Origin: Pelosinus propionicus DSM 13327
GTDB lineage: Bacteria > Bacillota > Negativicutes > DSM-13327
Assembly (NCBI RefSeq): GCF_900114615.1
Contig: NZ_FOTS01000046.1
Location: 1-39,055 of the forward strand
DNA length: 39,055 nucleotides
Direction: 5' to 3'
Under the pieces are notes generated by a model. It worked only from the letters and a program-made list of their open reading frames with translations, was not told the origin of the DNA and made no database searches. Of this stretch, positions 6 to 29,360 are shown piece by piece. Numbering within the stretch: the stretch's first letter is position 1; every line of letters starts with the position of its first letter. The position numbers were made by a program, and so were the translations under genes.

Positions 6-299
6 TTATAAGCAATTAGAAGCATCTTTCTTAAATTTAAAGAAAACATTAATACTTCCATCATTCTTGATTAAAAAGATTTCTGAAAGATATTCGGATA
101 ATTCTTCAACGCTTAAACGACTAACGTCTTGCAGGAAAAACTTGCAAAAAGCGTTCTTTGTTTTTGTTTCATCTACAGAAAGTTCAAGCTGAAATATTTT
201 ATCAGCTGTCGAAAGTTTTCGATCTCCATCTAAACAATGTTCTGAACGCTCCGAAAGTAGCTGTAACTGCTTTTGGAGTATTTCTTTTTGCTCACTCAT
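6..299 (-). CDS. Hypothetical protein of the integrated element
   Basis: I do not recognise this 97-residue acidic protein. I chose the ATG at 299 because a strong AGGAGGTGAG ribosome site lies just upstream; the open frame extends further but without such a site. The N-terminal third (about residues 1-35) looks like a short coiled coil (MSEQKEILQKQLQLLSER). The rest is a small mixed fold with no Cys/His motif or membrane segment. It is the most distal visible gene of a minus-strand run of small genes (1083-1247, 614-1036, 386-592, then this one), which are probably accessory genes of the mobile element. AT-rich codon use fits the element rather than the chromosome to the right. Confidence 0.6.
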   Translation of the reverse strand: MSEQKEILQKQLQLLSERSEHCLDGDRKLSTADKIFQLELSVDETKTKNAFCKFFLQDVSRLSVEELSEYLSEIFLIKNDGSINVFFKFKKDASNCL

Positions 300-385
300 A
301 ATATTTCTCACCTCCTTTGCATAATCTCCGATACATACGCATATACTAGACTGGGAAAGTCTACGCGATTTTCGCTGATAAAAAA

Positions 386-592
386 TTAAATCCACATTTC
401 AACGATAACCGGATCATCATCTACGCTTGGTGCCACCCTGATAAAAAACCCTGCTGGAATTGCTGACCTGACATCTGCTAACGTATCCCTAACGATTACA
501 AATTCCGTAGGTTTATCAGAATACCAAAGCCTTGCAACATATTTACCAAGATAATCACTTGGATTTTTATACACGACTATTATAGGAATCAC
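386..592 (-). CDS. Small hypothetical protein, GTG start
   Basis: This is a 68-residue protein with alternating hydrophobic strands (MIPIIVVYKNPSDY at the start, DDPVIVEMWI at the end), which suggests a compact beta-rich domain. The start is GTG at 592 behind AAAGGAGC with 8-base spacing, and no in-frame ATG lies upstream. It is followed closely by the 6-299 gene on the same strand, so the two are probably cotranscribed as part of the element's small-gene operon. I see no family match and propose no function. Confidence 0.55.
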   Translation of the reverse strand: MIPIIVVYKNPSDYLGKYVARLWYSDKPTEFVIVRDTLADVRSAIPAGFFIRVAPSVDDDPVIVEMWI

Positions 593-613: not shown

Positions 614-1036
614 TCATGGTTGGGGGCTATTTTTTATAACACCAGAAAAAACTGAACGACTTACTAAAGATAGACAACGAACTAGTATTGAATGAACCTC
701 ATCATGCGTTAACCCTTCATCACCAAGCAATTCCAGCAATATATAAGACAGTTGTAAGTGTTTTTGTGCCTTGGATGCCGATGGTGTCGGTTGTATGGTT
801 TGGTATGGATAATTGCGCACATAGTTATTATTGCGTATCCCTTGTTGGATAGGAGGACGTCCATAATTATCAGATAAAAAAGGCAAGCTATCAGTTGTAC
901 AATTAGGTAAACCGCAATTAAACTTTCCACCTGTTTTCCAGCAGTTGCATATAGTTACTAGCTTTGTTTTGCATAGTGAACAAAAATTGCCTTGTGGGAC
1001 TGCTGCTTTGCAATGAGGGCAAATTACTTTATTCAT
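614..1036 (-). CDS. Zinc-ribbon protein of the integrated element
   Basis: This 140-residue protein starts with a classic zinc ribbon: CPHC at residues 6-9 and CSLC at about 19-22. Four more cysteines follow (CNC at about 30-32, then a CGLPNC stretch), so one or two zinc sites are likely. A Pro/Asn/Gln-rich linker (about 60-85) leads to a helical C-terminal part (about 90-130) with no recognised fold. The ribosome site GAAAGGAGC precedes the ATG at 1036. The role is unknown; DNA or protein binding is plausible for a mobile-element accessory protein but is only inference. Confidence 0.6.
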   Translation of the reverse strand: MNKVICPHCKAAVPQGNFCSLCKTKLVTICNCWKTGGKFNCGLPNCTTDSLPFLSDNYGRPPIQQGIRNNNYVRNYPYQTIQPTPSASKAQKHLQLSYILLELLGDEGLTHDEVHSILVRCLSLVSRSVFSGVIKNSPQP

Positions 1037-1283: not shown

Positions 1284-1298
1284 TCTACTTTAAGTAGA
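1284..1298. promoter_or_regulatory. Palindromic operator, copy 1 (TCTACTTTAAGTAGA)
   Basis: This is a perfect 15-base palindrome that overlaps the stop codon of the small XRE gene. The same motif recurs in the divergent intergenic region (1534-1548, 1597-1611). The three copies bracket the small XRE gene and point to a phage-type repressor binding them. Confidence 0.55.
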
Positions 1299-1490
1299 AT
1301 CTCTAGAGAAAAAAATTTCATCATATGGTATATCTACTATTTTAGATATTTTCTTCGCTTGCGCAATTGTGGCAAGCTCTGGATTTTGTTCAATTTTTCG
1401 ATATGTCTGGACATGAATTCCTAGAGTTTTAGCCAGGTCATCCTGCTTTAAGTCTTTCATGAGCCTTGCTTTTTTTATACTTAAAGACAT
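1290..1490 (-). CDS. Small XRE-family DNA-binding protein (Cro-like)
   Basis: This is a single helix-turn-helix domain of about 66 residues. The HTH runs over roughly residues 10-45 (KDLKQDDLAKTLGIHVQTYR). I chose the ATG at 1490 because AAAGGAGAT lies about 10 bases upstream; an earlier in-frame ATG at 1511 precedes that ribosome site. It is divergent from the larger XRE gene at 1648 and shares an operator-bearing intergenic region with it, the layout of a cI/cro or ImmR/Xis switch in phages and ICEs. It probably controls the minus-strand small genes or counteracts the larger repressor (inference). Confidence 0.75.
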   Translation of the reverse strand: MSLSIKKARLMKDLKQDDLAKTLGIHVQTYRKIEQNPELATIAQAKKISKIVDIPYDEIFFSRDST

Positions 1491-1533
1491 TAGATTAAGA
1501 TCTCCTTTCATCGTTATTATGCTTTCATGTTAA

Positions 1534-1611: not shown

Positions 1612-1647
1612 CTATCTAACTAAATCATATTAATAAAGGTGGTTACC

Positions 1648-2136
1648 ATGGCTATTGGAGATAATATAAAAAAACTAAGAAAATTTCATGACTTATCTCA
1701 AAAAGACTTGGCTTTAATTGCAGGCGTAAGCGATAAGGCCGTGTCTACATGGGAAAGTGGAGCAAAAGAACCACGTATGGGTGTAATTCAGAAAATTGCT
1801 GATCACTTTGGATTACAAAAAAGCAATATAATTGAAGATAATGGTTTAGATAATATATATCAGATGCATGATAATGGAAGAGTAAATACAGTTTTTCAGA
1901 GTAAACTTGCTAATTCTCTCCCTGCATTAAATCCTAGAGACGAGCGCAGTATAAAGAAAAAATTAGAATCTGTTCTAAATGACCTTATGCCAGAAAACGC
2001 TCTAGCCTATTATGACGGTGATGAGCCAATGAGCGATGAGGATAAGGAACTTCTCCGCATCTCCCTTGAAAATACTATGAGATTAGCAAAACAAATGGCA
2101 AAACAAAAATTTACTCCTAATAAATTTAAGAAATAG
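1648..2136 (+). CDS. XRE-family repressor (ImmR-like)
   Basis: This 162-residue regulator has a canonical N-terminal HTH (about residues 5-60, DLSQKDLALIAGVSDKAVST then WESG). It carries a longer C-terminal part that ends in a basic helix (MAKQMAKQKFTPNKFKK). I chose the ATG at 1648 because AAAGGTGG sits at the right distance; a GTG at 1639 is also in frame but overlaps that site. The ImmA-like peptidase gene starts 21 bases downstream. In ICEBs1-type elements, ImmR holds the element silent and ImmA cleaves it after DNA damage or signalling. The pairing here suggests the same immunity switch, but cleavage is not shown by the sequence. Confidence 0.85.
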   Translation: MAIGDNIKKLRKFHDLSQKDLALIAGVSDKAVSTWESGAKEPRMGVIQKIADHFGLQKSNIIEDNGLDNIYQMHDNGRVNTVFQSKLANSLPALNPRDERSIKKKLESVLNDLMPENALAYYDGDEPMSDEDKELLRISLENTMRLAKQMAKQKFTPNKFKK

Positions 2137-2157: not shown

Positions 2158-2583
2158 ATGATAAAAGATGTTGTAGAAAATTTAATAAAAAAATATAAAA
2201 CAAATTGCCCTTTTACATTAGCCAAGAAATTGAACATCATTGTTCTATATGAAGATTTGGGCGGCACTATGGGTTACTTTAGTAAAGACTTTAGATTTAA
2301 ATTTATTCATATTAACCAATCTCTTGATAAAAGGGAAAGCACTTTTACATGCGCCCATGAACTTGGACATGCTGTTCAACACCATGATGTTAGTACACCA
2401 TTCTTAAAACGCCACACACTATTTTCAATTGACAAGGTCGAACGTGAAGCTAATACTTTTGCCGTAGAGCTATTACTTCCAGACACATTATTGCAGGAAC
2501 ATGCTGACTGCAGCCTGTTTAATATAGGAAAAACTGTAGGGATACCTGGTAAACTAATAAAACTTAAGAGTCAATTCAAATAA
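2158..2583 (+). CDS. ImmA/IrrE-family metallopeptidase
   Basis: This 141-residue zinc peptidase has the HExxH motif in CAHELGHAVQHH (His67, Glu68, His71). A downstream E-A-N-xF-A segment (VEREANTFAVELLLP, about 98-112) supplies the third ligand typical of the family. The ribosome site GGGAGG precedes the ATG. It is shorter than some ImmA proteins but complete in the catalytic core. It lies in one operon with the XRE repressor and is predicted to cleave it to release the element. The recombinase gene follows after a hairpin. Confidence 0.88.
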   Translation: MIKDVVENLIKKYKTNCPFTLAKKLNIIVLYEDLGGTMGYFSKDFRFKFIHINQSLDKRESTFTCAHELGHAVQHHDVSTPFLKRHTLFSIDKVEREANTFAVELLLPDTLLQEHADCSLFNIGKTVGIPGKLIKLKSQFK

Positions 2584-2618: not shown

Positions 2619-2644
2619 AATCTTATAATATAGGAGTGATTTTT

Positions 2645-4138
2645 ATGATAACCGCAATTTATGTTCGAGTTTCGACAGATCAACAGGCTGAACATGGTTA
2701 CTCTCTTAAAACTCAACTTGAAGCCTGCCGTGTTAAAGCAAACGAATTTGGCGCAACAGAAATAATCGAATTTATAGACGATGGATATTCTGGTGAATAC
2801 TTAGATAGACCTGCTATGAATAATCTCCGTTCTGAAGTTAGTGAAAAGAAAATAAATCTAGTAATGGTATATGATCCTGATCGCTTAGCTCGTAATCTTG
2901 CTCACCAGCTCATTATTACAGATGAAATAGAAAAATCAGGAGCGCAACTTAAATTTGTTTCTGTGACTTTTGAGAGATCTGCAGAAGGAAAATTATTTTA
3001 TTCTCTACGTGGAGCTGTGGCAGAATTTGAAAAAGCCAAAATTCTTGAACGTTCATTACGCGGAAAGAAAGGAAAATTAAAGACCGGGAAATTACTACAA
3101 GACAGCAATTTGTTTGGTTATGATTGGGACGAGGAAAAATCTAATTATATAATTAATGAAAAAGAGGCTGAAACGGTTAGATTAATTTATAAAATATTAC
3201 TTGAACAAAAAATCGGATGTTTGCGCATTGCTCATATATTAAATGATCAAGGATTAAGAACATTGAAAGGATTCCCTTGGCATTATACGTCAGTATATAG
3301 GATATTAACAAATGAGAAGTACGCTGGTAATCATATAGGTTTAAAATATTGTAATTATTTTTCAGAACTAGGCAAAAAAAAGCGAAAATTACGTGATGAA
3401 AACGAATGGGTGCAAGTTTCTGTTCCGGCTATTATAGAAAAATCTATTTGGGATGATGCTCAAAAGCAGCTATCCGAAAATAGAACTAACAGCTCTCGAA
3501 AAACTATACGCATATATTTATTACAGAATTTACTTACGTGTGGCAATTGTGGACGCAAAATGTCTATCTTTCATTCTAGTAGCAACTCCCCTACATATTA
3601 TGGGTGTCGCTCAAAGAGAGGCGTCTCTGGAAATGGGAATTGCGGTGCTCGACTCATTCAAGTTGACCAATTAGAAATTGCTATATGGAGTACCTTGCAA
3701 AATATTTGTTCAGATGAAACAAGTCTCAAAAAATATATAAAGCAGCACGACGAAAACGCAACTCAAGATAATAATATTAAAAAAGTATTGGATAACTTGA
3801 ATAGCCAAGAAAAAAAATTGATTAAACAACGAGACACCGTTATGAGATGGTTTTCTCAGCAATTGCTTAGTGATGAAGATGCTGAGAAAAAGTTACATGA
3901 GATAAAAAAGCAACTTGACTCTATAAATAATTCCAGAAAAAAAATTAAACCTACTATTCGAAACAAGCGTACAGTAAGTGAAATTATTTCTATATTTAAA
4001 AGCTATGATATTCAAAACATCACAACAATAGAGCAAAAGCAGGTGATAAACGACTTAATAGAAGATATAAAAGCAGAAAGAATTGATCATGTTTTTAGAA
4101 GCGATGCAGAAATTTCAATTAATATTACCTTTCTTTAA
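2645..4138 (+). CDS. Large serine recombinase (site-specific integrase)
   Basis: This 497-residue large serine recombinase integrates and excises the element. The resolvase domain is at about 1-150, with the catalytic serine in YVRVSTDQQ (Ser10) and the conserved DRLARN region at about 80. The recombinase domain follows (about 160-270, RIAHILNDQGLRT). A zinc ribbon (CGNCGRKM then YGCRSKRG, about 300-335) is followed by a long coiled coil (about 375-435). I chose the ATG at 2645 because TAGGAGTGA precedes it; a GTG at 2636 overlaps that site. The gene ends only 18 bases before the truncated comFC, as expected for an integrase next to its attachment site. No tyrosine-recombinase gene is seen. 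Confidence 0.93.
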   Translation: MITAIYVRVSTDQQAEHGYSLKTQLEACRVKANEFGATEIIEFIDDGYSGEYLDRPAMNNLRSEVSEKKINLVMVYDPDRLARNLAHQLIITDEIEKSGAQLKFVSVTFERSAEGKLFYSLRGAVAEFEKAKILERSLRGKKGKLKTGKLLQDSNLFGYDWDEEKSNYIINEKEAETVRLIYKILLEQKIGCLRIAHILNDQGLRTLKGFPWHYTSVYRILTNEKYAGNHIGLKYCNYFSELGKKKRKLRDENEWVQVSVPAIIEKSIWDDAQKQLSENRTNSSRKTIRIYLLQNLLTCGNCGRKMSIFHSSSNSPTYYGCRSKRGVSGNGNCGARLIQVDQLEIAIWSTLQNICSDETSLKKYIKQHDENATQDNNIKKVLDNLNSQEKKLIKQRDTVMRWFSQQLLSDEDAEKKLHEIKKQLDSINNSRKKIKPTIRNKRTVSEIISIFKSYDIQNITTIEQKQVINDLIEDIKAERIDHVFRSDAEISINITFL

Positions 4139-4200
4139 TGCCTATTATATGTTTTATTATTCATCCATCGTAATACCCGTGGTTATAATATCATCTACCA
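4139..4200. other. Element-chromosome junction (attL/attR) inside comFC
   Basis: The comFC reading frame is typical of the family up to its PRPP-like motif and the following TMDE, then stops at TAA (4157-4159), where normal ComFC continues for some 25-40 residues. The serine recombinase gene ends at 4138. The crossover core must lie near 4155-4200, probably in the codons for TTGITMDE. The exact core dinucleotide cannot be fixed with one junction. Confidence 0.65.
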
Positions 4201-4738
4201 ACAATATATGCTTTTCTTTTACCACTTCAGGGCGCGTAATGCTAAACGCGCCCTTTATATTTTCTTTTCGTTTTGCTAGAGTCAGCTCCCATTGAGGAAT
4301 GGTACGCCTGCCCCGTACTAATAGTTCTGGCATCCACTGAAGTTTTTCTTTCTTTGACCATTCCTTAAAGATAACCTCTGTCTGATTATAACCCCTCTCT
4401 CGCAGACGATCCGTATGTAATGGTACAGGGATTACATACTCAATCGTTGAAAATAAGTGCGCTAATTTACTGTTGATTAATAGCCAATTCAGATGAATGC
4501 CATATTTCTTTTGTTGACGAAATTTCATATCGTGAATAATCCGCTTTAGACCACCTGTATATTCGCATACCACGCGACAGGAGTCTAAGGATTTTAATCG
4601 ATGCTCCAGAAGATTAATTTCTCGAACCGCCAAAATAGCGGATAAACAGATAGAGCACCATGCCCCATGCTCCTGCACTAAGGTTTTACAGTAAGGACAT
4701 TTGGGAGGATAAAGGATATTCAAAAAAGTATTCCACAT
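4157..4738 (-). pseudogene. comFC: comFC, 3'-truncated by element insertion (ComF family phosphoribosyltransferase-like)
   Basis: This is a ComF-family protein needed for DNA uptake or processing in naturally competent bacteria. It has a four-cysteine zinc ribbon (C14, C17, C28, C31), then a phosphoribosyltransferase-like domain ending in HILLVDDIITTG (177-188). Family members run on past this motif for one or two more helices; this one ends five residues later at MDE, exactly where the mobile element begins. Its ATG overlaps the recD2 stop by one base (TAATG), so it is translationally coupled to recD2. It may still yield a partly folded protein, and excision would restore it. The missing 3' part should lie at the far end of the element, outside the window. 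Confidence 0.85.
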
Positions 4739-6894
4739 TACAACTCTTCTCCCCGCAGCCGTTCTGCCAGTAGGGAATAGCGCCTTTTGGTGCGGTCATT
4801 AGATAAGGCAGTGTTAAGTGCAGCCTTGCTGCCTAAGAGAACCACTCTTTCTTTCGCTCTTGTTACGGCGGTATACAGCAAATTGCGCTGCAGCATAATG
4901 TGATGTCCTGAAATTAGGGGCATAATGACAACGGGATATTCGCTGCCCTGACTTTTGTGGACACTCATGGCGTAAGCAAGATGCAGTTCATCAATTTCTC
5001 CGCGTTCATAGATCACATTCTGCTCGGGATAACGAACGGCAACTCTGCCGTTTTGAATGCCTGTAATGAAGCCAATATCTCCGTTATATACCCCTTTGGT
5101 ATAATTATTTTTCATTTGCATGATCTTATCGCCTTCCCGCAATACCTGATTGGCGCCAGAGATAGAAGCTTTCCCTTCTCTTTCTGGATTTAAGGCTTGT
5201 TGGAGCAGCTTATTTAAATTCTCCACACCGCACACCAATCGATGCATAGGCGCCAAGACTTGTACATCATAAGAAACATTAAAACCTTCTTTAGGAAGCT
5301 GCTCATGGCACAACTCTACAATGGCATCGGCAACTGCATCACTGTCACTAATTTCAAGAAATTGAAAGTCCTTACTGCTTTTAAAATCAGGCAGCATTCC
5401 CCGATTAATCTGATGAGCATTCATAACGATCATACTTTCACCAGCCTGACGAAACACCTCTGTCAAACGCACCACTGGCACAGTCGTTGAACGAATGATA
5501 TCTTTCAATACCGATCCGGGACCAACCGCAGGCAGTTGGTCTACGTCCCCGACTAAGATGACTCGGCAGCCATCTGGTATCGCCTGAAGAAATGAATTCA
5601 TCAGGGAAATATCCATCATCGAAACTTCATCAATGATGACCACCTCTGCATCTAATGGCTCATTCTCATTACGCATAAACAAAGGGGCTCCCTCGACTCC
5701 CCCCGTAGATTCCAATAGCCGATGAACAGTCATTGCTTCCCGGTCGGTAGCCTCACTTAAGCGTTTTGCCGCCCGCCCGGTAGGTGCGCCTAAGAGCAGC
5801 TTAAATCCTTGATTTTCTAGAACATCCAGCATACCTCGCACAACCGTAGTTTTACCCGTACCAGGCCCACCCGTTAAGACTAAAACACCATGCAGTAATG
5901 ATGATAATACAGCTTCACGCTGGGCAGCTGCCAATGTGATTCCTGATTGTTTTTCCCAGCCGTCCACAATTGCCGGTAAATCATCATCAGGAGCCTGTGT
6001 AGCCCTGTCTTTTAAACGCAATAATCGCTCCGCTACCCTTTTTTCTGCATAGTATAAATGGCGGGGATAGATTAGAGTCATCCCATGAAAATCTTCCACA
6101 CATAAACGACTTTCTTGAATCAAAAAAGATAGATGTCTAGCTACATCTATGGGATCAACCAGCAGCAGCTTGGCAGCTTCCTGTACCAGAGTCTCTTCAG
6201 GTACACAGCAATGACCTGCTTGAGAAATTTGCAGCAATGCGAAATCAATTCCTGCAGTGATCCGTTCCTCGTGATTGCGTTCTAATCCCAAAGACATGGC
6301 AATTTGATCTGCCGTGCGAAATCCAATGCCTTGTACTTCTTGCGCTAATCGATAGGGGTTTTCTTGCAAAACACTAATTGCCAAAAATCCGTACTGGGTA
6401 AAAATCTTACCGGCATAGGCTCCCGTTACTCCATTCATTTCTAAGAATAACATGACTTCATGCATCTCCGATTGCTGAGAGTAAGCCTCGTGAATTGCCT
6501 CCGCTTTCTTTTTGCCTATCCCTTCTATTTCTTGTAAGCGCTTAGGCTTTTCTTCGATGATTTTCAATGTATCTAAGCCGAATTGCTTTACTAAACGTGC
6601 CGCCATGGCTGGACCAATCCCTTTAATAGCACCAGAGGCCAAAAAACGTTCGATGCCTTTCACACTGGCTGGCGCCACTTTTTTGAAGCTTGCTGCTTTA
6701 AATTGACGGCCAAAACGAGCATGCTCCGCCCATTCTCCTGTCAGCTCCAGCTGTTCACCCACTAAAGGCACCAGCATGTTGCCGACCACAGCGACAGTGC
6801 CATTCTCATTAGCTGGTTTTAACTTAAATACGACAAAACCATTATCGGTATTATGAAATATTATATTTTCTACGGTACCTTCTAAATGTTCCAC
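4738..6894 (-). CDS. recD2: RecD2-type ATP-dependent DNA helicase
   Basis: This 5'-3' superfamily-1B helicase has the long N-terminal region typical of RecD2 (YrrC) in bacteria without RecBC. N-terminal OB-like and helix-hairpin-helix segments (AIKGIGPAMAARLVKQFG, then IEGIGKKKAEAI) come first. Walker A GGPGTGKTT is near residue 340, then DEVSMMD, GDVDQLPAVGPG, VHKSQGSEYP and YTAVTRAKE. I chose the GTG at 6894 (product starts MEHLEGTVENIIFHN) because GTGGAG lies 7 bases upstream and family homology begins there. The open frame has a TTG at 6942 with no ribosome site. It should act in replication-fork and mismatch or recombination repair. It is coupled to comFC downstream. Confidence 0.93.
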   Translation of the reverse strand: MEHLEGTVENIIFHNTDNGFVVFKLKPANENGTVAVVGNMLVPLVGEQLELTGEWAEHARFGRQFKAASFKKVAPASVKGIERFLASGAIKGIGPAMAARLVKQFGLDTLKIIEEKPKRLQEIEGIGKKKAEAIHEAYSQQSEMHEVMLFLEMNGVTGAYAGKIFTQYGFLAISVLQENPYRLAQEVQGIGFRTADQIAMSLGLERNHEERITAGIDFALLQISQAGHCCVPEETLVQEAAKLLLVDPIDVARHLSFLIQESRLCVEDFHGMTLIYPRHLYYAEKRVAERLLRLKDRATQAPDDDLPAIVDGWEKQSGITLAAAQREAVLSSLLHGVLVLTGGPGTGKTTVVRGMLDVLENQGFKLLLGAPTGRAAKRLSEATDREAMTVHRLLESTGGVEGAPLFMRNENEPLDAEVVIIDEVSMMDISLMNSFLQAIPDGCRVILVGDVDQLPAVGPGSVLKDIIRSTTVPVVRLTEVFRQAGESMIVMNAHQINRGMLPDFKSSKDFQFLEISDSDAVADAIVELCHEQLPKEGFNVSYDVQVLAPMHRLVCGVENLNKLLQQALNPEREGKASISGANQVLREGDKIMQMKNNYTKGVYNGDIGFITGIQNGRVAVRYPEQNVIYERGEIDELHLAYAMSVHKSQGSEYPVVIMPLISGHHIMLQRNLLYTAVTRAKERVVLLGSKAALNTALSNDRTKRRYSLLAERLRGEEL

Positions 6895-7074
6895 AGCGTT
6901 ACTCCACTTTAAAATAATTATCAATTCTTTTTTTATTCGCAAGTTTCTGCCTAAATCCTGCCAGGAGAGGAAAATAACCAGATATTGTACATTAGCAGGA
7001 CTAGACAGTCATTGAAATTCGGTGTATCTTAGAGGAATATCCCATCAAGAAAAAAATATAAAGGGGTTTTTACA

Positions 7075-7323
7075 ATGACGACTTATAACACAGCTGGCGT
7101 ATGTGCCAAAGAAATAGATTTTGAATTGAAAGATGGAATTGTAACCAATGTACGATTTAACGGTGGCTGTCCTGGTAATCTACAGGCGATAAGTATATTG
7201 GTAGAAGGGATGCCCGCTGAAGACGTTATCAAAAAATTAAAAGGCATTACTTGCGGGCAGAAGACAACTTCCTGTACGGATCAATTGGTTCATGCAATAT
7301 TGAAACAGCTCGAAAAGCAGTAA
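7075..7323 (+). CDS. TSCPD-domain protein (TIGR03905-like)
   Basis: This 82-residue stand-alone TSCPD domain is the small cysteine-containing module also found at the C-terminus of adenosylcobalamin-dependent ribonucleotide reductases. Conserved features are VCAKEI, FNGGCPGN (Cys near 29), GITCGQKTTSCTDQL (two Cys near 61 and 68) and a terminal helix. A metal or nucleotide-binding role is suspected for the family but not established. The ribosome site AAAGGGG precedes the ATG. It is divergent from recD2 and followed by a strong hairpin, so it is a monocistronic unit. Confidence 0.8.
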   Translation: MTTYNTAGVCAKEIDFELKDGIVTNVRFNGGCPGNLQAISILVEGMPAEDVIKKLKGITCGQKTTSCTDQLVHAILKQLEKQ

Positions 7324-7340
7324 GACGGAAAGCGCAAATT

Positions 7341-7389
7341 GCAATAACCCCCAGTACATCGATTAGATCGATCTACTGGGGGTTATTGC
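7341..7389. terminator. Long near-perfect hairpin after the TSCPD gene
   Basis: A 16-bp perfect stem (GCAATAACCCCCAGTA with its complement) is continued, after one C/C mismatch, by a second self-complementary pair ATCGAT/ATCGAT around a TAG loop. It lies between convergent genes, so it is probably a bidirectional terminator, although no T-run follows on either strand. Confidence 0.7.
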
Positions 7390-7454
7390 ATTGCACCTTA
7401 TAAATTAGCTGCTATTTATTGCTGCTAACTCAATACATGCCACCTCTTCATTAG

Positions 7455-7667
7455 TTACGCCAATACTGCGGTATCCTTGCTATTAATGCGTGCTTCTACG
7501 ATTTGAGATAAATCTCCGGTTTTACTTTCAAAGACTTTTTTAGCAATAATATCCTCCATGACCGTTTTTACTTCTGCCAGAGTCAGGTTTTCTTTCGGAT
7601 CTGCAATGCTTAGTGTGACTTCTTTGCCGCCATCACTGCGAAAAACCATATCCAATGTTTTTGCCAT
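7455..7667 (-). CDS. DUF2922 family protein
   Basis: This 70-residue protein begins MAKTLDMVFRS and has the alternating pattern of DUF2922 (KEVTLSIADPKENLT, then a helix EVKTVMEDIIAKKVF). AAGGAGGTGA lies 9 bases before the ATG at 7667; a GTG six bases earlier is too close to it. It pairs with the DUF1659 gene just upstream, a frequent couple in Firmicutes. No function is known for either family. The pair is preceded by a sigma-70-family gene on the same strand, so the three are likely one operon. Confidence 0.82.
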   Translation of the reverse strand: MAKTLDMVFRSDGGKEVTLSIADPKENLTLAEVKTVMEDIIAKKVFESKTGDLSQIVEARINSKDTAVLA

Positions 7668-7707
7668 TGCCACTCACCTCCTTACTAGCAGATTTTTTTA
7701 AGATCAC

Positions 7708-7932
7708 TTAAGCATTGACTAAATTGCCGTCGTCTTGTCTGCTAATACCGATTACTGCATGGGTCTGCAAATTGGCAATTGCCTGCGCTACTGCGTATAC
7801 ATCTGTATCCGCAGCACTGACTTTCACGTTTTTATAGCTTCTTTGACGCTGCACCGGCTGCCCCTTAGCATTTACACCATTTTCAATCGTAATTACCATT
7901 TTACTGGCTTGCGGTACTTTATTCACTGCCAT
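7708..7932 (-). CDS. DUF1659 family protein
   Basis: This 74-residue protein (MAVNKVPQASKMVITIENG at the start) has the DUF1659 signature of two strands, the conserved RQRSYKNVK segment and a helix DTDVYAVAQAIANLQ. The start is ATG 7932, chosen for AAGGGGGTGAGA upstream; a GTG at 7941 overlaps that site. The sigma-factor stop codon lies at 7938, so the genes nearly touch. The function is unknown; tight linkage to the sigma factor and DUF2922 suggests a common regulon. Confidence 0.82.
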   Translation of the reverse strand: MAVNKVPQASKMVITIENGVNAKGQPVQRQRSYKNVKVSAADTDVYAVAQAIANLQTHAVIGISRQDDGNLVNA

Positions 7933-7937
7933 TTGTC

Positions 7938-8519
7938 TCACCCCCTTTCACTGCTATACATTCCAGCGCATAGGATCTTTAAACGTGCAAATCCTCGCTG
8001 CCGCAGGTTGTATACTGCTTGTGTCGTGATTCCCATGGCTGCTGCTACGTTTGTCAATTTTTCTTGTCCAATTACCGTTCTTAAAATTACTTGCCGTTGT
8101 TTTTCAGGCAGTGTATCAATGAAACTCCTAAGCTCATGAGACAGCAAACGTTCTTCTACTTCTCCAGGCACATCCGCATTGTCCGGTAAGTAGTCAAAAA
8201 AATCAACCTCTTCTCCTTCCTGACCACCTTCCAGCTGCTCTTCCTGCCAAATGCGACGTTCTTTTTTAAACAAATTCCAAATTGCAAATTTAACCTTACT
8301 CTTCACATAGCCTGCAAAATGTACACCGCTATTTCCATCATATGACTTCACAGCTTGAACCACAGCTAACCAGGCTTGGGCTTCTGCTTCTTCTGTTATC
8401 GTTCGCAAATGGGCCTGATGTGCATACTTCTTAACCAACCCGGTAAAGCAAGTGCAAATTTCCTGAAAAGCTTCTTTGTCACCCCTTTGAGCATTTCTAA
8501 CCAACTGATGTAATTCCAT
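7938..8519 (-). CDS. Sigma-70 family RNA polymerase sigma factor
   Basis: This is a 193-residue small sigma factor. Region 2 begins VRNAQRGDKEAFQEI (about 8-22), with the -10 recognition helix around YVKSKVKFAIWNLFKKERR (about 89-107). An acidic linker (EGGQEGEEVDFFDYLPDN) follows, then region 4 with an HTH (LTNVAAAMGITTQAVYNLRQRG, about 158-179). I chose the ATG at 8519 because ATAAGGTGAG precedes it; the frame extends 18 codons upstream without a ribosome site. No anti-sigma gene is adjacent. It heads the DUF1659/DUF2922 cassette and may drive it (inference). Confidence 0.85.
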   Translation of the reverse strand: MELHQLVRNAQRGDKEAFQEICTCFTGLVKKYAHQAHLRTITEEAEAQAWLAVVQAVKSYDGNSGVHFAGYVKSKVKFAIWNLFKKERRIWQEEQLEGGQEGEEVDFFDYLPDNADVPGEVEERLLSHELRSFIDTLPEKQRQVILRTVIGQEKLTNVAAAMGITTQAVYNLRQRGFARLKILCAGMYSSERG

Positions 8520-8596
8520 TTTTCTCACCTTATGGCGAGAAACCGGTTTCTCTGATATTAGCGCTGAGTTCAATCTATCACTTTAATTGCAAACAA

Positions 8597-8640
8597 ACAA
8601 AAGCCGACCTGCATGTCACTTGACATACAAGTCGGCCTTA
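8597..8640 (-). terminator. Rho-independent terminator of the ABC-F gene
   Basis: On the minus strand the arms GCCGACTTGTATGTCA and TGACATGCAGGTCGGC form a stem around a two-base loop. TTTTGTTTGTTT follows it. It lies downstream of the ABC-F gene and upstream of the sigma-factor gene, separating the two. Confidence 0.85.
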
Positions 8641-8672
8641 AAATAATTAGGAAAAATGCTTTGCAGTCTTAT

Positions 8673-8757
8673 GAACCGCAGAGACGCAGAGAACACAGAG
8701 AAAAAAATAGAGAGGGTTAGAAAAATCCTCTCTGCGCACTCTGTGCCTCTGCGGTTC
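8673..8757. repeat. Dispersed palindromic repeat, copy 1
   Basis: The outer arms GAACCGCAGAGACGCAGAG and CTCTGTGCCTCTGCGGTTC are inverted complements, with an inner pair (AGAGAGGgtt / CCTCTCT) and an AT-rich middle. Related copies lie at 13155-13239 and 17156-17234, with a shorter relative at 10833-10860. All are intergenic. Confidence 0.8.
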
Positions 8758-8781
8758 AAATGTTTTGTCTTTTTCTCTATT

Positions 8782-10677
8782 CTATTCCTCTGTCATCTCT
8801 ACCCAAGCATCATATTTTTCTGCTAGCGCCGTTTGAGCTTTACTGTATTCATCTGCCAATTGCTGACTGGCATTTTGATCTTCGTGACTGGCAGGATCGT
8901 TGAGACGGTGCTCTAAGGTTTTAATCTCTAATTCCAGCATGGCAATTTCACCTTCCAGCTTCTGCTGGTTCTTTAAACTCTTCGCTTGATCTGTCTGACG
9001 CTGACGCGGCCGCCCACTCTTTTTGACAATCGATTCCTGCTTGGCAACTACTACTTGAGCTGTAGCTGCTTCTTTCTGCTGGATTAACTTCTTCTCCCGA
9101 TAGTAGCTATAGTTTCCGGCATACTCCTCTAATTTCCCATCCGCCAATTCCACCATACAATTTGCTACTTTATCCAGAAAATATCGATCATGAGAAACGG
9201 TTAGAAAGGTACCTGGAAAGCTTAAAATTGCTTCTTCTACCGCTTCTTTTGCAGGTATATCCAAATGATTGGTTGGTTCATCCAGAATCAAAAAGTTAGC
9301 TCCTGTTAGCATGAGCTTAAGCATCGCCAGCCTTGATTTCTCACCACCGCTCAATTCACCCACAATCTTGAAAACATCATCTCCTCGGAACAAAAAGGCT
9401 CCCAGATAGTGTCTTGCTCTTTCTTCGCTAAAACCATATTCCTGCATGATTTCATCGACAATTCGATTTTTGCCGTTCAATCCTTCATGTTCCTGTGAGA
9501 AATAACCAATCTTCACTCTACTGCCAAGTTTCACTCTACCGCCAACAGGCGTTAACTCACCTGTCAGTAGTTTCAATAATGTAGTCTTCCCTGCTCCATT
9601 GGGGCCTACTAAGGCTACGCCATCCCCCTTACGAATTAAGAGGGATACTTTTTCAAAAATCTTGCGCTCCCCATAGGCAGCCGAGGCCTCTTCCAGCTCA
9701 GCTACCCGTTCTGCACACTCACTAGGAGGATTAAATCCGAAAAAATCAAAACGAGCAATATTAGCCGGCTGAACAATCCGCTCTAAACGCTGCAGCTGTT
9801 TTTCCCGTCCCCGTGCTTGCTTAGACTTAATCCCCGCCTTGTACATTCGAATGTACGCTTCGGTTTTGGCAATGTGATCCTGCTGCTTCTCATAAGCGTT
9901 TTCCAAAGCTGCCATATTTTCAGCTTTTTGCTGCATATAGGAGGTATAGTTGCCTTTATAAGCAGTCAAAGCTTTATTTTCCAGTTCAATGATCCGATTG
10001 ACCACCTTATCCAAGAAATAACGATCATGCGAAATGATTAGTACGCCGCCAGGGTACCCAATCAGAAATTCTTCCAGCCACTCTACCATCCCAATGTCCA
10101 AATGATTGGTAGGTTCATCTAAAAATAAAAAATCAGGCTGACGAATTAAGGCTCTCGCCAAGCAAATCCTGGTTTTTTGCCCGCCCGAAAAGGTTTCAAT
10201 TTTCCGTGAAAAATCCTCTGTAGTAAAGCCTAGACCAAAAGCAACACGTCGAATATTATTCTCATATTCGTAGCCCCCGCCCCGCTCAAATTTGTCCACC
10301 ACTTTTGCATATTCTTTCATTAGTCCATCTAGAAGGCTTTCCTCTTTTTCGACTGCAATCGCCTGTTCTAATTCATGCATTTTATCCTGACAAACCAATA
10401 TGTCGGTGTATGCAGAGCATAATTCCTCATAAAGCGTTCCCTGATGCAAGGTAGAATCCTGCTGGACATAACCAATGTTCTCACCGATCGGTACTGCCAC
10501 ACGCCCTCCGTCAACAGCTTCCAGCCCCAGCAAACAGCGCATGAGCGTCGTCTTACCTGTGCCATTGGCACCAATTAGCCCAATGGTATCTCCGCGATCT
10601 AATTCAAATGACACATTGGTAAATAGGGTCTCAATACCAAAAGATTTATGTAAATTTTCTACTCGTAATATTCCCAT
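8782..10677 (-). CDS. ABC-F family ATPase (ribosome-associated, Uup/YdiF type)
   Basis: This 631-residue protein has two ABC ATPase domains and no membrane domain. Domain 1 has GANGTGKTT (about 36-44), SGGQKTRICLARAL and LFLDEPTNHLD. A long linker helix pair (about 245-310, the P-site tRNA interaction motif region) follows. Domain 2 has GPNGAGKTT, LSGGEKSRLAMLKL and LILDEPTNHLD. A charged C-terminal coiled coil (about 545-631) resembles the Uup/YdiF DNA- or RNA-binding tail. ABC-F proteins act on the ribosome in translation or antibiotic protection; the tail favours a housekeeping role over a resistance one. The ribosome site AGGTGGAG precedes the ATG, and the gene has its own terminator. Confidence 0.92.
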   Translation of the reverse strand: MGILRVENLHKSFGIETLFTNVSFELDRGDTIGLIGANGTGKTTLMRCLLGLEAVDGGRVAVPIGENIGYVQQDSTLHQGTLYEELCSAYTDILVCQDKMHELEQAIAVEKEESLLDGLMKEYAKVVDKFERGGGYEYENNIRRVAFGLGFTTEDFSRKIETFSGGQKTRICLARALIRQPDFLFLDEPTNHLDIGMVEWLEEFLIGYPGGVLIISHDRYFLDKVVNRIIELENKALTAYKGNYTSYMQQKAENMAALENAYEKQQDHIAKTEAYIRMYKAGIKSKQARGREKQLQRLERIVQPANIARFDFFGFNPPSECAERVAELEEASAAYGERKIFEKVSLLIRKGDGVALVGPNGAGKTTLLKLLTGELTPVGGRVKLGSRVKIGYFSQEHEGLNGKNRIVDEIMQEYGFSEERARHYLGAFLFRGDDVFKIVGELSGGEKSRLAMLKLMLTGANFLILDEPTNHLDIPAKEAVEEAILSFPGTFLTVSHDRYFLDKVANCMVELADGKLEEYAGNYSYYREKKLIQQKEAATAQVVVAKQESIVKKSGRPRQRQTDQAKSLKNQQKLEGEIAMLELEIKTLEHRLNDPASHEDQNASQQLADEYSKAQTALAEKYDAWVEMTEE

Positions 10678-10894: not shown

Positions 10895-11731
10895 CTACTC
10901 AATTGTACAAATTGCATCGGGACGGCGTACTAATAGAGCCGCTGTCTCTAATACTCTAAAGGTATGATTCATATTGGCAGCTCCCATATAAGAAGTAGTC
11001 ATATCCTGACCAACTGCCAAGTTCACATTGTGACCACCAGTGGCTAATACGACTGCCTTGTTGCCGCTAATGGTGTTGGAATAATATACTCCACCAGTAA
11101 TTAAGGCTTTCACCTGATCCAATTCCAACATTCCAGTATTACCATACACCCGTACCATGCGGCCAAAGAGAAGAGGGCTCACTACCATGGCATAAGGACC
11201 ATAATGTCCAGCTTCGCTCAAAGCACTAACGGCTTTTACTGCATCAGCCAAAGCACTGCCTGGCTCATCCCAATTGCTGATTTTTACAGTCTTGCGTCCT
11301 TGTACATTCAGCAATCCAACTTGGCCGAGTTCTTTGTTGCCATTGAAAATTAGATTATCTTCCTGAACGGCTACATAGTTCGCAGCTACCGCAGCAGTAC
11401 TGACATCAAGAGGCAATCCCATATGACGATCGGCTTCTACATCCCGCCACATAATTCTAAAATCTTTGTAAAGCATTGGTACACTCGTCGTCGCACGAGA
11501 ACTAGGCGCTACAATAAAATCTTCCTGTTCTCCAACCATATCTATACCTGTAGACGAAGTTCCGCTAAAAATCGAATATGGAATCGTATATACTCCAGGA
11601 CCCATAGGTCCTAACACTTCAATTACTCTTCTGCCTACCAACATACGACGAGCTGTATTCACAACTGCCTCATCAACCTTTGCCCATTCCGTTTCTGTCA
11701 AAGGTGCTGAATCCCGATCTAAAATATCCAT
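10895..11731 (-). CDS. Family 1 encapsulin shell protein
   Basis: This is a 278-residue HK97-fold shell protein of a protein nanocompartment. It has the typical N-terminus of the linocin/CFP29 family (MDILDRDSAPLTETEWAKVDE, the cargo-binding helix). GRRVIEVLGPMGPG, a peripheral domain with EDNLIFNG and LLNVQGRKT, GPYAMVVSPLLFGRM and the A-domain end AVGQDMTTSYMG follow. Length matches family 1 (260-290). GGGAGGAG precedes the ATG. It lies 23 bases after an encapsulated-ferritin gene, so the cargo is an iron-oxidising ferritin and the compartment is probably an iron store. The upstream zinc-ribbon gene may belong to the same transcript. Confidence 0.93.
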   Translation of the reverse strand: MDILDRDSAPLTETEWAKVDEAVVNTARRMLVGRRVIEVLGPMGPGVYTIPYSIFSGTSSTGIDMVGEQEDFIVAPSSRATTSVPMLYKDFRIMWRDVEADRHMGLPLDVSTAAVAANYVAVQEDNLIFNGNKELGQVGLLNVQGRKTVKISNWDEPGSALADAVKAVSALSEAGHYGPYAMVVSPLLFGRMVRVYGNTGMLELDQVKALITGGVYYSNTISGNKAVVLATGGHNVNLAVGQDMTTSYMGAANMNHTFRVLETAALLVRRPDAICTIE

Positions 11732-11754
11732 ACTATCTCTCCTCCCTTTTTAAT

Positions 11755-12111
11755 TTACTTTTTACCAAATAGATTACCAACAGTTGCAACTTTCTCATCC
11801 GCATCGTTTGAAGCTCCACTTACTACGCGATCTTCTTGCGCCATCGTGTGGTCTTCAGCGAATTTCTCTCGCTGAATGACATCAATTCGAGCTAAGAGAT
11901 GCGTGATCTCTGCGACATGTTCTTTTTCATCATCCCGAATATGCTCCAGCAATTCTCTAACTTCTTCATTATCAATCCTATCAATGTGAGCCTGATACTG
12001 ATTAATTGCTTCCAATTCTCCGATTAAATCTTCACGCAGCCAAATAATTACCTGCTCTAAGCCAGCATCTTTTACATCTTCACCTTTGGTTTCAGTTTTG
12101 CTATAAGCCAT
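11755..12111 (-). CDS. Encapsulated ferritin-like protein (EncFtn) with cargo-loading tail
   Basis: This 118-residue two-helix ferritin-like protein forms its di-iron centre across a dimer interface inside the encapsulin. Metal-site residues of the family are visible at the expected positions: Glu32, Glu34, Tyr39, Glu62 and His65 (in GELEAINQY and DDEKEH). The Trp38 and Glu31 of the Rhodospirillum protein appear as Gln and Gly here. A flexible linker (about 90-108) leads to ATVGNLFGKK at the C-terminus, which matches the pattern of encapsulin loading peptides. AAGGAG precedes the ATG. It oxidises Fe(II) and passes it into the shell lumen (family knowledge). Confidence 0.92.
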   Translation of the reverse strand: MAYSKTETKGEDVKDAGLEQVIIWLREDLIGELEAINQYQAHIDRIDNEEVRELLEHIRDDEKEHVAEITHLLARIDVIQREKFAEDHTMAQEDRVVSGASNDADEKVATVGNLFGKK

Positions 12112-18697: not shown

Positions 18698-18971
18698 TAA
18701 AAAGCCCTCCTTCTCTATATTCAACCCTTCATTATATTCCCAAGGAAAGTAATATATGCTAATAACTTCGACAACTTGTAAATCTAATCCTGCTGCTAAC
18801 CAGTGAAGAGCCAGAAACAAAAAATAGTGTGACACCTTCACTCTCATATACATCTTTCATTGGATATTTTCGCACTTTTATGTTACACTGTGCTTAAGAA
18901 TAGACACCCCAATACCCCTTATGAAAACGATCACCTACGGATTGTAAATTACTAAGAAAGGAGCTCAACAA

Positions 18972-19436
18972 ATGCCTAGTGAAGAATTATTACGAGAAAT
19001 CCTTACCGAAATTAAGTCCGTAAAAATTGATGTTTCTACATTAAAAGACGATGTCTCTGCACTAAAAAGCGATGTCTCTACACTAAAAAGCGATGTCTCT
19101 ACACTAAAAAGCGATGTCTCTACACTAAAAAGCGATGTCTCTACATTAAAAATCGATGTCTCTACACTAAAAAGCGATGTCTCTACATTAAAAATCGATG
19201 TCTCTACATTAAAAAGCGATGTTTCAGACATCAAAGCCACTATGGTAACCAAAGATGAATTTACGCATGCCATTCGTGAACAGCAGCAAGATGTTATGAA
19301 AATCTTGGAATTAACGGATAAAAAAATGGATCGTGTAGAATCTGAAATCAAAAACATTCGTCGCGATATCCGAACGATTGAAGCCGTAACCGTTAAGAAT
19401 TGGAATGAGATTCTAGATTTAAAAGAAGCGAAGTAA
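18972..19436 (+). CDS. Small coiled-coil protein built from heptad tandem repeats
   Basis: This is a 154-residue soluble protein. Residues 20-89 are ten near-identical heptads (DVSTLKS type) that predict a long coiled coil, encoded by 21-bp tandem repeats. A second charged helical segment (about 95-150, ending EAVTVKNWNEILDLKEAK) follows. AAAGGAG precedes the ATG, and TTGGAT/TACACT promoter-like boxes lie about 80-115 bases upstream. There is no membrane helix. Similar short coiled-coil proteins are common in Firmicutes without a known role. The repeat number could change by slippage, which would alter coil length without breaking the frame. Confidence 0.75.
   Translation: MPSEELLREILTEIKSVKIDVSTLKDDVSALKSDVSTLKSDVSTLKSDVSTLKSDVSTLKIDVSTLKSDVSTLKIDVSTLKSDVSDIKATMVTKDEFTHAIREQQQDVMKILELTDKKMDRVESEIKNIRRDIRTIEAVTVKNWNEILDLKEAK
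19029..19238 (+). repeat. 21-bp tandem repeat array, about ten units
   Basis: Consecutive 21-base units of the type GATGTCTCTACACTAAAAAG plus C encode DVSTLKS. Several central units are identical at the DNA level, and differences cluster at the ends and at an AGC/ATC switch in the last codon. Confidence 0.9.
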
Positions 19437-22035: not shown

Positions 22036-22713
22036 TTAATCTATGATTTCGCAGCCTCGCTCAGCAAGTGCCTTATCAACCCAGCTCCGATCCCATTTCA
22101 TATTTTTAATATCTTCCATAGTCTTTTGTTCCGCCTGGTTTTTTGCCTTAGTTTTTTGCAATAACTCGAATGCATCTTGCGGCTTTATGACTACCAGACC
22201 ATCCTCATCACCAACCAGAATATCACCAGGTTCAATGACTGCCCCACCACAAGAAACAGGAACATTGATTTCCCCAGGACCATCTTTATAAGGACCAGCC
22301 GGAGTTACCCCTGCTGCATAAATCGGGACACCGAGATTTTTTAAAGCGCCACTATCTCGAATAGCGCCATCAATCACAAAACCTGCAATTCCCCTTTTCT
22401 TCGCCCACAATACCATCAATTCACCCATAATGGAGTTACTGACATCTCCTTGTGCATCCACTACCAGCACATCACCAGGCAGAGCCATATCTAAGGCTTT
22501 GTGAAGCAGAAGATTATCGCCAGGACGTGACTTAATGGTAAAAGCTGTCCCTAACAAGGGCACATTATTCATAGGACGAAGACGTGCATGGATACACGAC
22601 ATGCGATTCATGTTATCCGCAATATTAGCCACTGGCAGTCCTGTAAAACTTTCGATTATTGCTTTTGAAGGGCGGTTAATTGTCTTGTAAATACGCAATC
22701 CTACATTTGACAT
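22036..22713 (-). CDS. RraA-family aldolase/decarboxylase, copy 1
   Basis: This 225-residue protein is of the RraA/HMG-CHA aldolase family. These class II enzymes cleave 4-hydroxy-4-methyl-2-oxoglutarate-type substrates or decarboxylate oxaloacetate. Arg and Asp of the catalytic motif are present in GFVIDGAIRD (about 111-120), along with GELMVLWAKKRG before it and VGDEDGLVVI near 165. The presence of these residues argues for an enzyme and not the RNase E inhibitor RraA. AGAGGAG precedes the ATG. It is the first gene of an operon with the MFS carrier and Ldh2-type dehydrogenase; a second copy with about 29 differences lies at 23666. Confidence 0.88.
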   Translation of the reverse strand: MSNVGLRIYKTINRPSKAIIESFTGLPVANIADNMNRMSCIHARLRPMNNVPLLGTAFTIKSRPGDNLLLHKALDMALPGDVLVVDAQGDVSNSIMGELMVLWAKKRGIAGFVIDGAIRDSGALKNLGVPIYAAGVTPAGPYKDGPGEINVPVSCGGAVIEPGDILVGDEDGLVVIKPQDAFELLQKTKAKNQAEQKTMEDIKNMKWDRSWVDKALAERGCEIID

Positions 22714-23665: not shown

Positions 23666-24343
23666 TCATTCTATGATTTCACAGCCGCGCGCAGCAAGAG
23701 CTTTGTCGACCCAGGTCCGATCCCATGACATACCTTCAATTTCTTCCATACTCTTTTGCTCTGCCAAATTTTTTGCTTTGGTTTTTTTCAATAACTCTAG
23801 CGCATCTTGCGGCTTTATGACTACAAGACCATCCTCATCACCAACCAAAATATCACCAGGATGAATGACTGCGCCACCACAAGAAACGGGTACATTGATT
23901 TCTCCAGGGCCATCTTTATACGGACCAGCCGGAGTGACTCCAGCCGCATAAATAGGAATACCGAGATTTTTTAACGCTCTCACATCTCGAATGGCACCAT
24001 CAATTACAAAACCTGCAATTCCCCTTTTCTTCGCCCACCGCACCATTAATTCACCCATAATCGAGTTGCTGAGATCACCTTGCGCATCTACCACCAAAAT
24101 GTCGCCAGGCTCAGCTAGATCCAGCGCTTTATGAAGCAGAAGATTATCCCCAGGACGGGATTTAATGGTAAAGGCTGTTCCTAGCAGAGGCACTTCATTC
24201 ATGGGGCGAAGACGCGCATGAATACACGACATACGATTCATGTTATCCGCAATAGCAGCCACTGGCAGTCCTTTGAATGCTTCGATGACTGCCTTTGGAG
24301 GGCGATGGATCGTCTTGATAATACGCAATCCTACATTTGCCAT
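23666..24343 (-). CDS. RraA-family aldolase/decarboxylase, copy 2
   Basis: This is a 225-residue paralogue of the 22036-22713 protein. About 29 substitutions are visible by eye (roughly 87% identity), many conservative and clustered in the first 30 and last 50 residues. The catalytic GFVIDGAIRD motif and VGDEDGLVVI are intact, so both copies should be active. I chose the ATG at 24343 with GAAGGGA upstream; the frame starts seven codons earlier without a site. It is alone on its transcript, bounded by the 60-base palindrome. The divergence suggests an older duplication kept for dosage or for a second substrate. Confidence 0.88.
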   Translation of the reverse strand: MANVGLRIIKTIHRPPKAVIEAFKGLPVAAIADNMNRMSCIHARLRPMNEVPLLGTAFTIKSRPGDNLLLHKALDLAEPGDILVVDAQGDLSNSIMGELMVRWAKKRGIAGFVIDGAIRDVRALKNLGIPIYAAGVTPAGPYKDGPGEINVPVSCGGAVIHPGDILVGDEDGLVVIKPQDALELLKKTKAKNLAEQKSMEEIEGMSWDRTWVDKALAARGCEIIE

Positions 24344-24448
24344 AGCAGTATCCCTTCTTTTCACTTTTTAACACTTACTATTTTAAAAAATTTCCACCTC
24401 GTATATCAAAAACATATGCTATATCTTCACCATCAGAACCAGAATCAT

Positions 24449-24970: not shown

Positions 24971-25040
24971 TGTACTTAAACGAAAACATATAATATAATA
25001 ATTAACATATAAGTACAGTTTGTCAGCGTACTTATGTGTC
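24971..25040. promoter_or_regulatory. Inverted-repeat operator of the AbiE operon
   Basis: TGTACTTA (24971-24978), TAAGTACA (25010-25017) and GTACTTATGTG (about 25028-25039) form overlapping inverted repeats in the AT-rich promoter region. AbiEi antitoxins autoregulate by binding such repeats, so this is the likely site. Confidence 0.6.
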
Positions 25041-25086
25041 AATAATGTTAACACAAAGTTTCATTTTTGTACGGGTGGTGTTAGAT

Positions 25087-25680
25087 ATGACTTATACCGA
25101 ACAGATTATAAATATAGCCAAGAACCATAACGGGATGGTAACAGCAACACAAGTTACGGAGGCGCAAATACCAAGACGCTGTTTGACGGAATGCGTAAAG
25201 AAAAACGTTTTATTCAAAGTAGACCGTGGGGTTTATGTACTGCCGGATATATGGGAAGATGAGATGCTCATTTTTCAGTATAAATACCCCAAAGGTATTT
25301 TTTCCTTTGGAACAGCACTCTATTTACATGGCTTAACTGATAGAACGCCACTTCGCTATACCATGACATTTCCCCAGGGCTATAATATATCCGCTGCGCA
25401 AAATAACGGCATAGATGCTAAAATTGTTACCGTGAAACATTATACCTTGGGGGTAATGGAAATGAACTCCCCCCATAACAATAAAATCAGAGTGTATGAT
25501 CAGGAACGTACTTTATGCGATATTGTGAGAGGGAAAAATGCCGTTGATGTGCAAGTGGTGAATGCGGCCATGAAAAGCTACGTAAAATCCAAAGATAAAA
25601 ACATCGACAAGCTATATCGTTATGCGGAGAAGTTAAGAGTAAAAGCCAAGATCGCGCAGTATATGGAGGTGCTTTTATGA
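25087..25680 (+). CDS. AbiEi-family antitoxin (type IV toxin-antitoxin)
   Basis: This 197-residue antitoxin and transcriptional autoregulator has an N-terminal winged-helix domain (about 1-75, NGMVTATQVTEAQIPRRCLT, then VDRGVYVLPD). The AbiEi C-terminal domain follows (FSFGTALYLHGLTDRTP, YDQERTLCDIVRGKN). I chose the ATG at 25087, behind GGGTGGTG; the frame begins earlier at 25036 without a site. Its stop overlaps the toxin start (ATGA). In phage defence of the AbiE type the toxin stops growth of infected cells, and the antitoxin counters it without direct binding. Confidence 0.88.
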   Translation: MTYTEQIINIAKNHNGMVTATQVTEAQIPRRCLTECVKKNVLFKVDRGVYVLPDIWEDEMLIFQYKYPKGIFSFGTALYLHGLTDRTPLRYTMTFPQGYNISAAQNNGIDAKIVTVKHYTLGVMEMNSPHNNKIRVYDQERTLCDIVRGKNAVDVQVVNAAMKSYVKSKDKNIDKLYRYAEKLRVKAKIAQYMEVLL

Positions 25681-28366: not shown

Positions 28367-28780
28367 TTAAATTTTATCGATAACTTGCTGTTTGAACGTT
28401 TCAACATCTTTTAATTTTTCCTGTAAAATCATATATACCACATTTGCATCTACATCAATATATTGATGAGCTATCATATTACGAAATGCTACCATTTTAA
28501 TATAGATAGCAGCATGCGGCTTTGTCCAATATCCATGATCCGACAAAATTCGAAAACCATCGGATAGCACATCAATTTCCCCTAATTCTTCATCAGCTAC
28601 GATATGATTTACAATATCAATCATACAATTGATAATGATGAAGAGGTTATATTCTACTACATCTCTGGCAACTGGATGACTGATAAATTCATCATAATTC
28701 ATTGAAGTATAAACCTGTATTTTTCGTAGTGACTTTTCAATTTGATATAATTTTCGCTCTAAGACGTCCCGTTTAACCAT
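28367..28780 (-). CDS. hepT: HepT-family RNase toxin (DUF86, HEPN)
   Basis: This 137-residue four-helix HEPN protein acts as the toxin of type VII HepT/MntA toxin-antitoxin systems. The R-x4-H-x-Y RNase motif is seen as Arg100, His105 and Tyr107 in RNMIAHQY. An N-terminal helix with KLYQIEKSLRKIQVY is typical. The start ATG overlaps the end of the upstream MntA gene by eight bases, so the pair is translationally coupled. In studied systems MntA adds AMP to the Tyr of this motif and silences the RNase; the same Tyr is present here. Confidence 0.88.
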   Translation of the reverse strand: MVKRDVLERKLYQIEKSLRKIQVYTSMNYDEFISHPVARDVVEYNLFIIINCMIDIVNHIVADEELGEIDVLSDGFRILSDHGYWTKPHAAIYIKMVAFRNMIAHQYIDVDANVVYMILQEKLKDVETFKQQVIDKI

Positions 28781-29195: not shown

Positions 29196-29317
29196 AATTT
29201 ACACCGCCTCACATCCACTCGACCCTATATTTGTTATTATACCAATAATACCTTCAAAACACTAGATGAAAGTCCCCTCTGTCAACAAACGTCCCAACTG
29301 GCAAACAATTCCGATAA

Positions 29318-29358: not shown

Positions 29359-29360
29359 CA

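Follow-up and report, generated by a model that had tools for sequence, protein, structure and literature searches.

Mobile elements that split the coding part of competence genes have been described in other bacteria. Prophage insertions in comYC, comFA and comK, together with insertions of other elements in comM, were read as a defence against removal by transformation (Croucher et al., PMC4774983), pneumococcal prophages occupy integration sites that inhibit transformation (PMC12637031), and in Staphylococcus pseudintermedius a prophage lies in comGA (PMC7029219), as the available parts of these papers describe. For the Listeria A118-type prophage in comK, the available part of PMC7029219 describes restoration of the gene by excision, as we predict here for comFC. 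The element of Pelosinus propionicus DSM 13327 described below likewise interrupts a competence gene within its coding region, but its target is comFC, the phosphoribosyltransferase-like partner; it thus differs from the A118-type case in the gene and in the protein class. The inverted repeats, 4-base core and adjacent recombinase that we find are shared with Alicyclobacillus phage MMB025, integrated in sigK (PMC13141910, available part), and with the B. subtilis skin element, although the target in those systems is a sporulation sigma factor and here it is a competence gene.

The analysed window is the entire contig C57 (39,055 bases) of genome G000, a draft assembly of 5.41 Mb in 134 contigs with a contamination value of 3.73. 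comFC is precisely split there by an inserted element, which starts at the break in the gene, occupies the window from base 1 to about 4170 and continues past the left edge (base 1) of the contig, while most of the interval 4139-4738 belongs to the host gene. The features of the element and its borders are the following (window positions, unless contig C133 is named).

6-395, minus strand: 129-aa protein with no assigned function, at the contig edge (open reading frame list and family search)
386-592, minus strand: 68-aa protein, a conserved neighbour of the next gene, in the same order in the tailed-phage contig (locus L085)
614-1036, minus strand: 140-aa cysteine-rich protein with no family match, 74% identity in the same tailed-phage contig
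1284-1298: operator-like palindrome TCTACTTTAAGTAGA, exact
1290-1511, minus strand: second helix-turn-helix (HTH) protein, divergent, in a Cro-like position (family matches)
1534-1548: operator-like palindrome TCTACTTTTAGTAGA, exact
1597-1611: operator-like near-palindrome, one mismatch
1639-2136, plus strand: ImmR/RstR-like HTH repressor (family matches)
2158-2583, plus strand: ImmA/IrrE-like M78 peptidase (family matches)
2584-2618: 14-pair hairpin, terminator-like on the minus strand, between the ImmA-like gene and the integrase
2636-4138, plus strand: large serine integrase, 500 aa, with Resolvase, Recombinase and zinc ribbon domains (Pfam, all over cut-off; phrog_95)
4144-4170: one attP arm, of which 4144-4166 is an inverted copy (96%) of C133:7527-7549
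4157-4738, minus strand: 5' part of comFC, 193 codons, the final three codons and the stop coming from the element arm
4170-4173, minus strand: attL core TTAC (comFC sense), with AC at 4171-4170 as the likely (deduced) crossover dinucleotide
C133:7522-7525, outside the window: attR core, mate of attL
C133:7666-7836, plus strand: Spo0E-like 56-aa protein (PF09388, E 2e-14; locus L033), about 140 bases from attR

recD2 (TIGR01448) precedes comFC on the minus strand. The short ComFC (193 aa) fits the ComF/GntX models through residue 192-193, with scores below the curated cut-offs; against the Pfam Pribosyltran model it reaches 22.8 (cut-off 26.3), and an intact relative reaches 37.8. In seven relatives of the genus, comFC comprises 215 codons after the start position (full length about 216), and in two loci of the same family it extends to residue 215-216. 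The region missing from the short protein corresponds to about 23 residues that are conserved after the PRPP motif in the genus relatives, and none of the relatives read carries the short form. The original prediction that ComFC loses its end exactly where the element begins holds for the truncation and was shifted as regards the boundary: since the favoured crossover core TTAC lies at 4170-4173, the Met-Asp-Glu-stop that closes the short open reading frame is already element sequence. The recombinase gene does adjoin the junction: its reading frame ends at a distance of 18 bases from the stop codon of comFC.

A missing 3' fragment of comFC had been expected at the other end of the element. 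With the 3' part of comFC from a relative and the genes downstream as a query against the own genome, we obtained a single match (C133:6004-7525, 87% identity), which ends at the expected comFC codon near base 7525; it is followed by 628 bases unlike comFC and then by the end of the contig. Read in the sense of comFC, the sequence is GGTATTAC followed by GATGGATGAATAATAAAACATATAAT at the left junction and ATTATATGTTTTATTATTCGTCCGTTAC followed by CTTGGATGAATGTGCC at the right one, the break falling between the two strings of each pair. When the host flanks are joined, they give one open comFC of 216 codons, in frame, that aligns with its relatives throughout. Excision would therefore be predicted to restore the exact gene, and the proposal that a serine-recombinase element has entered comFC behind the PRPP-like motif is borne out by the integrase domains, the far junction and the restored frame. 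In a draft of 134 contigs with contamination of 3.73, the two comFC pieces might also be suspected to derive from two strains or from a misjoin; however, the assembly holds one comFC 5' place and one 3' place, bordered by two halves of one palindrome, and we regard such an artefact as extremely improbable. Our searches of the assembly revealed no further attB- or attP-like junction and no excised form.

The sequences attL and attR have TTAC in common, which spans Ile-Thr codons of DDIITTGIT-L. Put together, the element ends form a palindrome with 22 of 25 matching arm positions, centred on AC, and in the control (1000 shuffles, 45 centres each) the best shuffle reached 18. A second string common to attP and attB, TGGATGAAT, is found two bases beyond TTAC; with this string as the core, a frame of 216 codons is likewise restored, Met replacing Leu, and 21 of 25 positions match, the dyad centre being unchanged (AC). 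The residue after the PRPP motif is Leu in all nine loci of the same genus or family (L003-L011) and Met, Leu or Ile in more distant loci. Because of the dyad centre AC and of the Leu in these nine loci, we favour TTAC, short as it is, as the crossover core, with TGGATGAAT as a less favoured alternative. An attP of two inverted arms around a short common core, with its centre on the crossover dinucleotide (bases deduced), is the arrangement expected for a large serine integrase. A match to the attP-arm pattern in one viral contig was dismissed as chance, there being no integrase or comFC at the site (reading frames judged by eye).

The attB lies within a conserved coding stretch, i.e., the PRPP-loop codons, and since these encode a conserved protein motif, the site may exist in many hosts. 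This would also suit a neutral choice of site, in which the integrase uses conserved codons and the loss of ComFC is irrelevant to the phage. No comFC was recognised beside 29 related integrases (reading frames by eye, most without a family search), so the integrase group overall does not appear to favour competence genes, and the host may not be transformable. comEC was over the cut-off in all eight genus genomes, which is weak evidence for a role of the competence machinery, as the same search was positive in 12 of 14 control genomes, E. coli included, and says little on transformability. Against a neutral choice stands the recurrence of competence genes as prophage sites in the available parts of PMC4774983, PMC12637031 and PMC7029219, and we hold this reading to be possible, though doubtful.

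Among solved structures, the integrase best matches that of TP901-1, and its top-ranked phage match (33.7%) is from Alicyclobacillus phage MMB025. Listeria A118-type prophages also carry a serine integrase. The integrase alone as a query retrieved no relative in scans of the genome contig and viral contig collections; in the integrase tree, its pairing with locus L035 was given no meaning, both being long branches flagged by the program. Adjoining the integrase is a lysogeny switch composed of HTH genes, an M78 peptidase and operator-like repeats, as expected for a tailed prophage. The operator-like motif TCTACTTTWAGTAGA occurs in three copies, all in the switch region, two of them exact and one with one mismatch. 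Scanning for it gave 9 matches, a number reached by 1 of 100 shuffles; six are the three switch sites counted on both strands, and the other three, at 25209 and 28203, have three mismatches. The supposed SOS/ImmR-type switch was supported in part: ImmR/ImmA-like genes do adjoin the integrase, but the SOS motif GAAC-N4-GTTC is absent from the window's part of the element, which was the part scanned, its one exact site in the window lying outside the element. We identified no directionality factor for the element, whose middle is unassembled, and no tRNA in the window.

The left-end genes connect the element with phages. A relative of the 140-aa protein, with the 68-aa neighbour alongside, is encoded by the 40-kb IMG/VR contig UViG_3300033434_000011 (G380), which also encodes terminase, portal, major head and tape-measure proteins; no relative of the 140-aa protein was found among named phages, and none of the 129-aa protein in the viral contigs. 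By DNA search, two further contigs of the own genome, C127 and C20, match the early genes of this phage contig in order; they overlap by 95 bases and encode a Sak4-like protein, SSB, helicases and primase. Both were assigned to the element by synteny with the phage contig, the join of C57 to C127 being made by synteny alone, and the outer element-side ends of C57, C127, C133 and C20 showed no exact 95-base overlap with the other contigs read. Since the left-end genes match a tailed-phage contig and C127 and C20 continue its early region, the element is probably a prophage, intact or not, with an unassembled middle. The likeness to UViG_3300033434_000011 consists in the 140-aa and 68-aa left-end genes and in the order of the early genes; unlike our element, that contig has no recognisable relative of the comFC integrase, although it may be a fragment.

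A DNA-level search of the whole assembly with the rest of the phage contig did not reveal head and tail genes of the element; beyond C127 and C20, it gave weak matches on C60 and C66 only. A protein search of 68 of the 134 contigs, many of them over their first 20 kb only, yielded structural matches solely on the same two contigs, which look like other phages, separate from the element. C66 (loci L101, L104 and L105) is a second phage-like contig; its tail genes resemble those of G380, but it was rejected as part of the element in view of its 47.9 kb and its many phage-like reading frames of its own. With no structural gene placed in the element, one could take it for an integrative conjugative element, or for what is left of a phage, that carries this same integrase and switch, and an ImmR/ImmA pair adjoining an integrase also fits ICEBs1-type elements. 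Such an identity is, however, at odds with the match of the left-end genes and of C127 and C20 to a tailed-phage contig, in order, and appears to us quite unlikely.

A cluster, about 49 bases long, of TTATCCACA repeats, which we take to be DnaA-box-like, was seen at four places (C133:7869-7917, C25:345-393, C41:15129-15175 and C59:132493-132541), one of them inside the element. Several other features of the window were also recorded: an encapsulin (Linocin_M18) adjoining an EncFtn-like ferritin (10895-12111, minus strand), an AbiEi/AbiEii-type toxin-antitoxin pair (25036-26522, plus strand), two adjacent nucleotidyltransferase pairs, in which Polbeta is combined with a HepT-like partner and with NTase_sub_bind, respectively (28367-30175, minus strand), two closely similar RraA-like genes (22036-22713 and 23666-24364, minus strand) and a tandem heptad-like repeat (VSTLKSD) at 18965-19436, open on both strands, with coiled-coil families matching the plus strand. 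The right contig end (38961-39055) recurs inside C119 (12069), beside an HTH reading frame at 38659, and may represent a transposase repeat at which the assembly stopped.

Related integrases were observed at other sites as well. In the own genome, a 45% relative of the comFC integrase lies inside spoVK (L076, G000:C83:103000-119000, 3907-8853), and the SpoVK model is matched by one gene piece at positions 3-135 and by the other at 137-261. In six of eight genus genomes (the own genome, G001, G003, G005, G006 and G007), an orthologous integrase adjoins the N-terminal piece, which is interrupted at the same point in all of them, and the C-terminal piece was found in the own genome and in G003, the two that were read far enough, about 4 kb and 8.8 kb away, respectively; in this survey (loci L076, L077, L041-L043, L047, L048, L054 and L058), the G004 contig ends too soon and no G002 locus was included. 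Two genomes of another family (G302 and G309) likewise have a related integrase next to spoVK, and at locus L062 (G037:C118) a related integrase directly abuts the 3' end of an apparent sigma factor gene, judged by eye. The serine-recombinase element in spoVK resembles the skin element. The two papers on intervening elements that were searched contain no occurrence of spoVK, nor does any title or abstract opening in the literature retrieved point to such an element.

A class-wide search for comFC itself matched 348 of 380 genomes, the own genome included; among the matches listed, comFC elsewhere reaches at least residue 212 of 216, only the own genome has it split, and G319 shows a single internal TGA. 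As one genome only carries the insertion, we make no case for recurrent targeting of comFC. The joined gene compared with five genus members has a dN/dS of 0.080-0.131, and the members among themselves 0.075-0.156; the 3' piece (about 22 codons) carries little weight in these values, and its protein is identical to that of G004. Such a lack of decay would be expected either if the insertion is recent or if the restored gene is under selection. The latter would be in line with active lysogeny, in which excision timed by host or phage, without phage production, would turn comFC and DNA uptake on conditionally, as in Listeria comK. The exact in-frame restoration of the gene, its dN/dS, the ImmR/ImmA-like control and the presence of related recombinases of the same genus inside spoVK, like developmentally excised elements, speak for this. 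Nevertheless, the assembly shows no excised form, there is no regulatory link to competence, a recent insertion would account for the absence of decay just as well and the carrier is a single genome; we therefore think that such a switch is unlikely.

Taken together, our results most probably reflect a temperate tailed phage that uses a large serine integrase to integrate site-specifically in comFC, disabling ComFC while resident and restoring it on leaving. The consequences for the protein may be judged from H. pylori ComFC, in which, according to the available part of PMC9005727, the strand 183-AIA-185 is part of the core sheet and the change of T165, in the PRPP loop, to Ala abolishes nucleotide binding, the variant restoring transformation to a level more than 40-fold below wild type. 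In our own motif alignment, AC falls in the codon that matches T165 (157-DDIITTGTTL-166), and the lost piece of ComFC holds the strand that matches residues 183-185. In the presence of the prophage, ComFC would retain the PRPP loop with this threonine but lack the helix behind it as well as the final strand of the core sheet; from this we infer a loss of function, and natural transformation would presumably be impaired. The ImmR-like repressor would keep the phage silent, the ImmA-like peptidase would probably relieve repression, and upon induction the integrase and a directionality factor would excise the prophage and make comFC whole again.

In our view, the likeliest reason for the choice of the site is a conflict with the host's transformation machinery: a phage that resides in a competence gene would evade replacement by imported homologous DNA. 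A switch that serves the host is conceivable but less likely. Through the Spo0E-like gene near attR, the element may have a dampening effect on sporulation too; that the prophage acts on two host decisions, stopping DNA uptake by splitting comFC in the threonine codon of the nucleotide-binding loop and holding back sporulation through a Spo0E-like phosphatase, with excision under ImmR/ImmA control releasing competence, nevertheless seems to us very unlikely.

The splitting of competence genes by prophages is known, and comFC looks like a new target. The word comFC does not occur in the main text of PMC4774983, the gene is absent from the integration sites described in the available parts of PMC4774983, PMC12637031 and PMC7029219, and no prophage in comFC is described in those of PMC2516327 and PMC11477304 or indicated by the titles or abstract openings of the literature retrieved on comFC and prophages. 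With this locus, the ComFC step of DNA uptake would join the competence functions that are hit by prophages. The attB and attP sites as deduced here are precise enough for a direct test, and may serve to find out whether prophages and transformation are also in conflict outside the groups examined to date.
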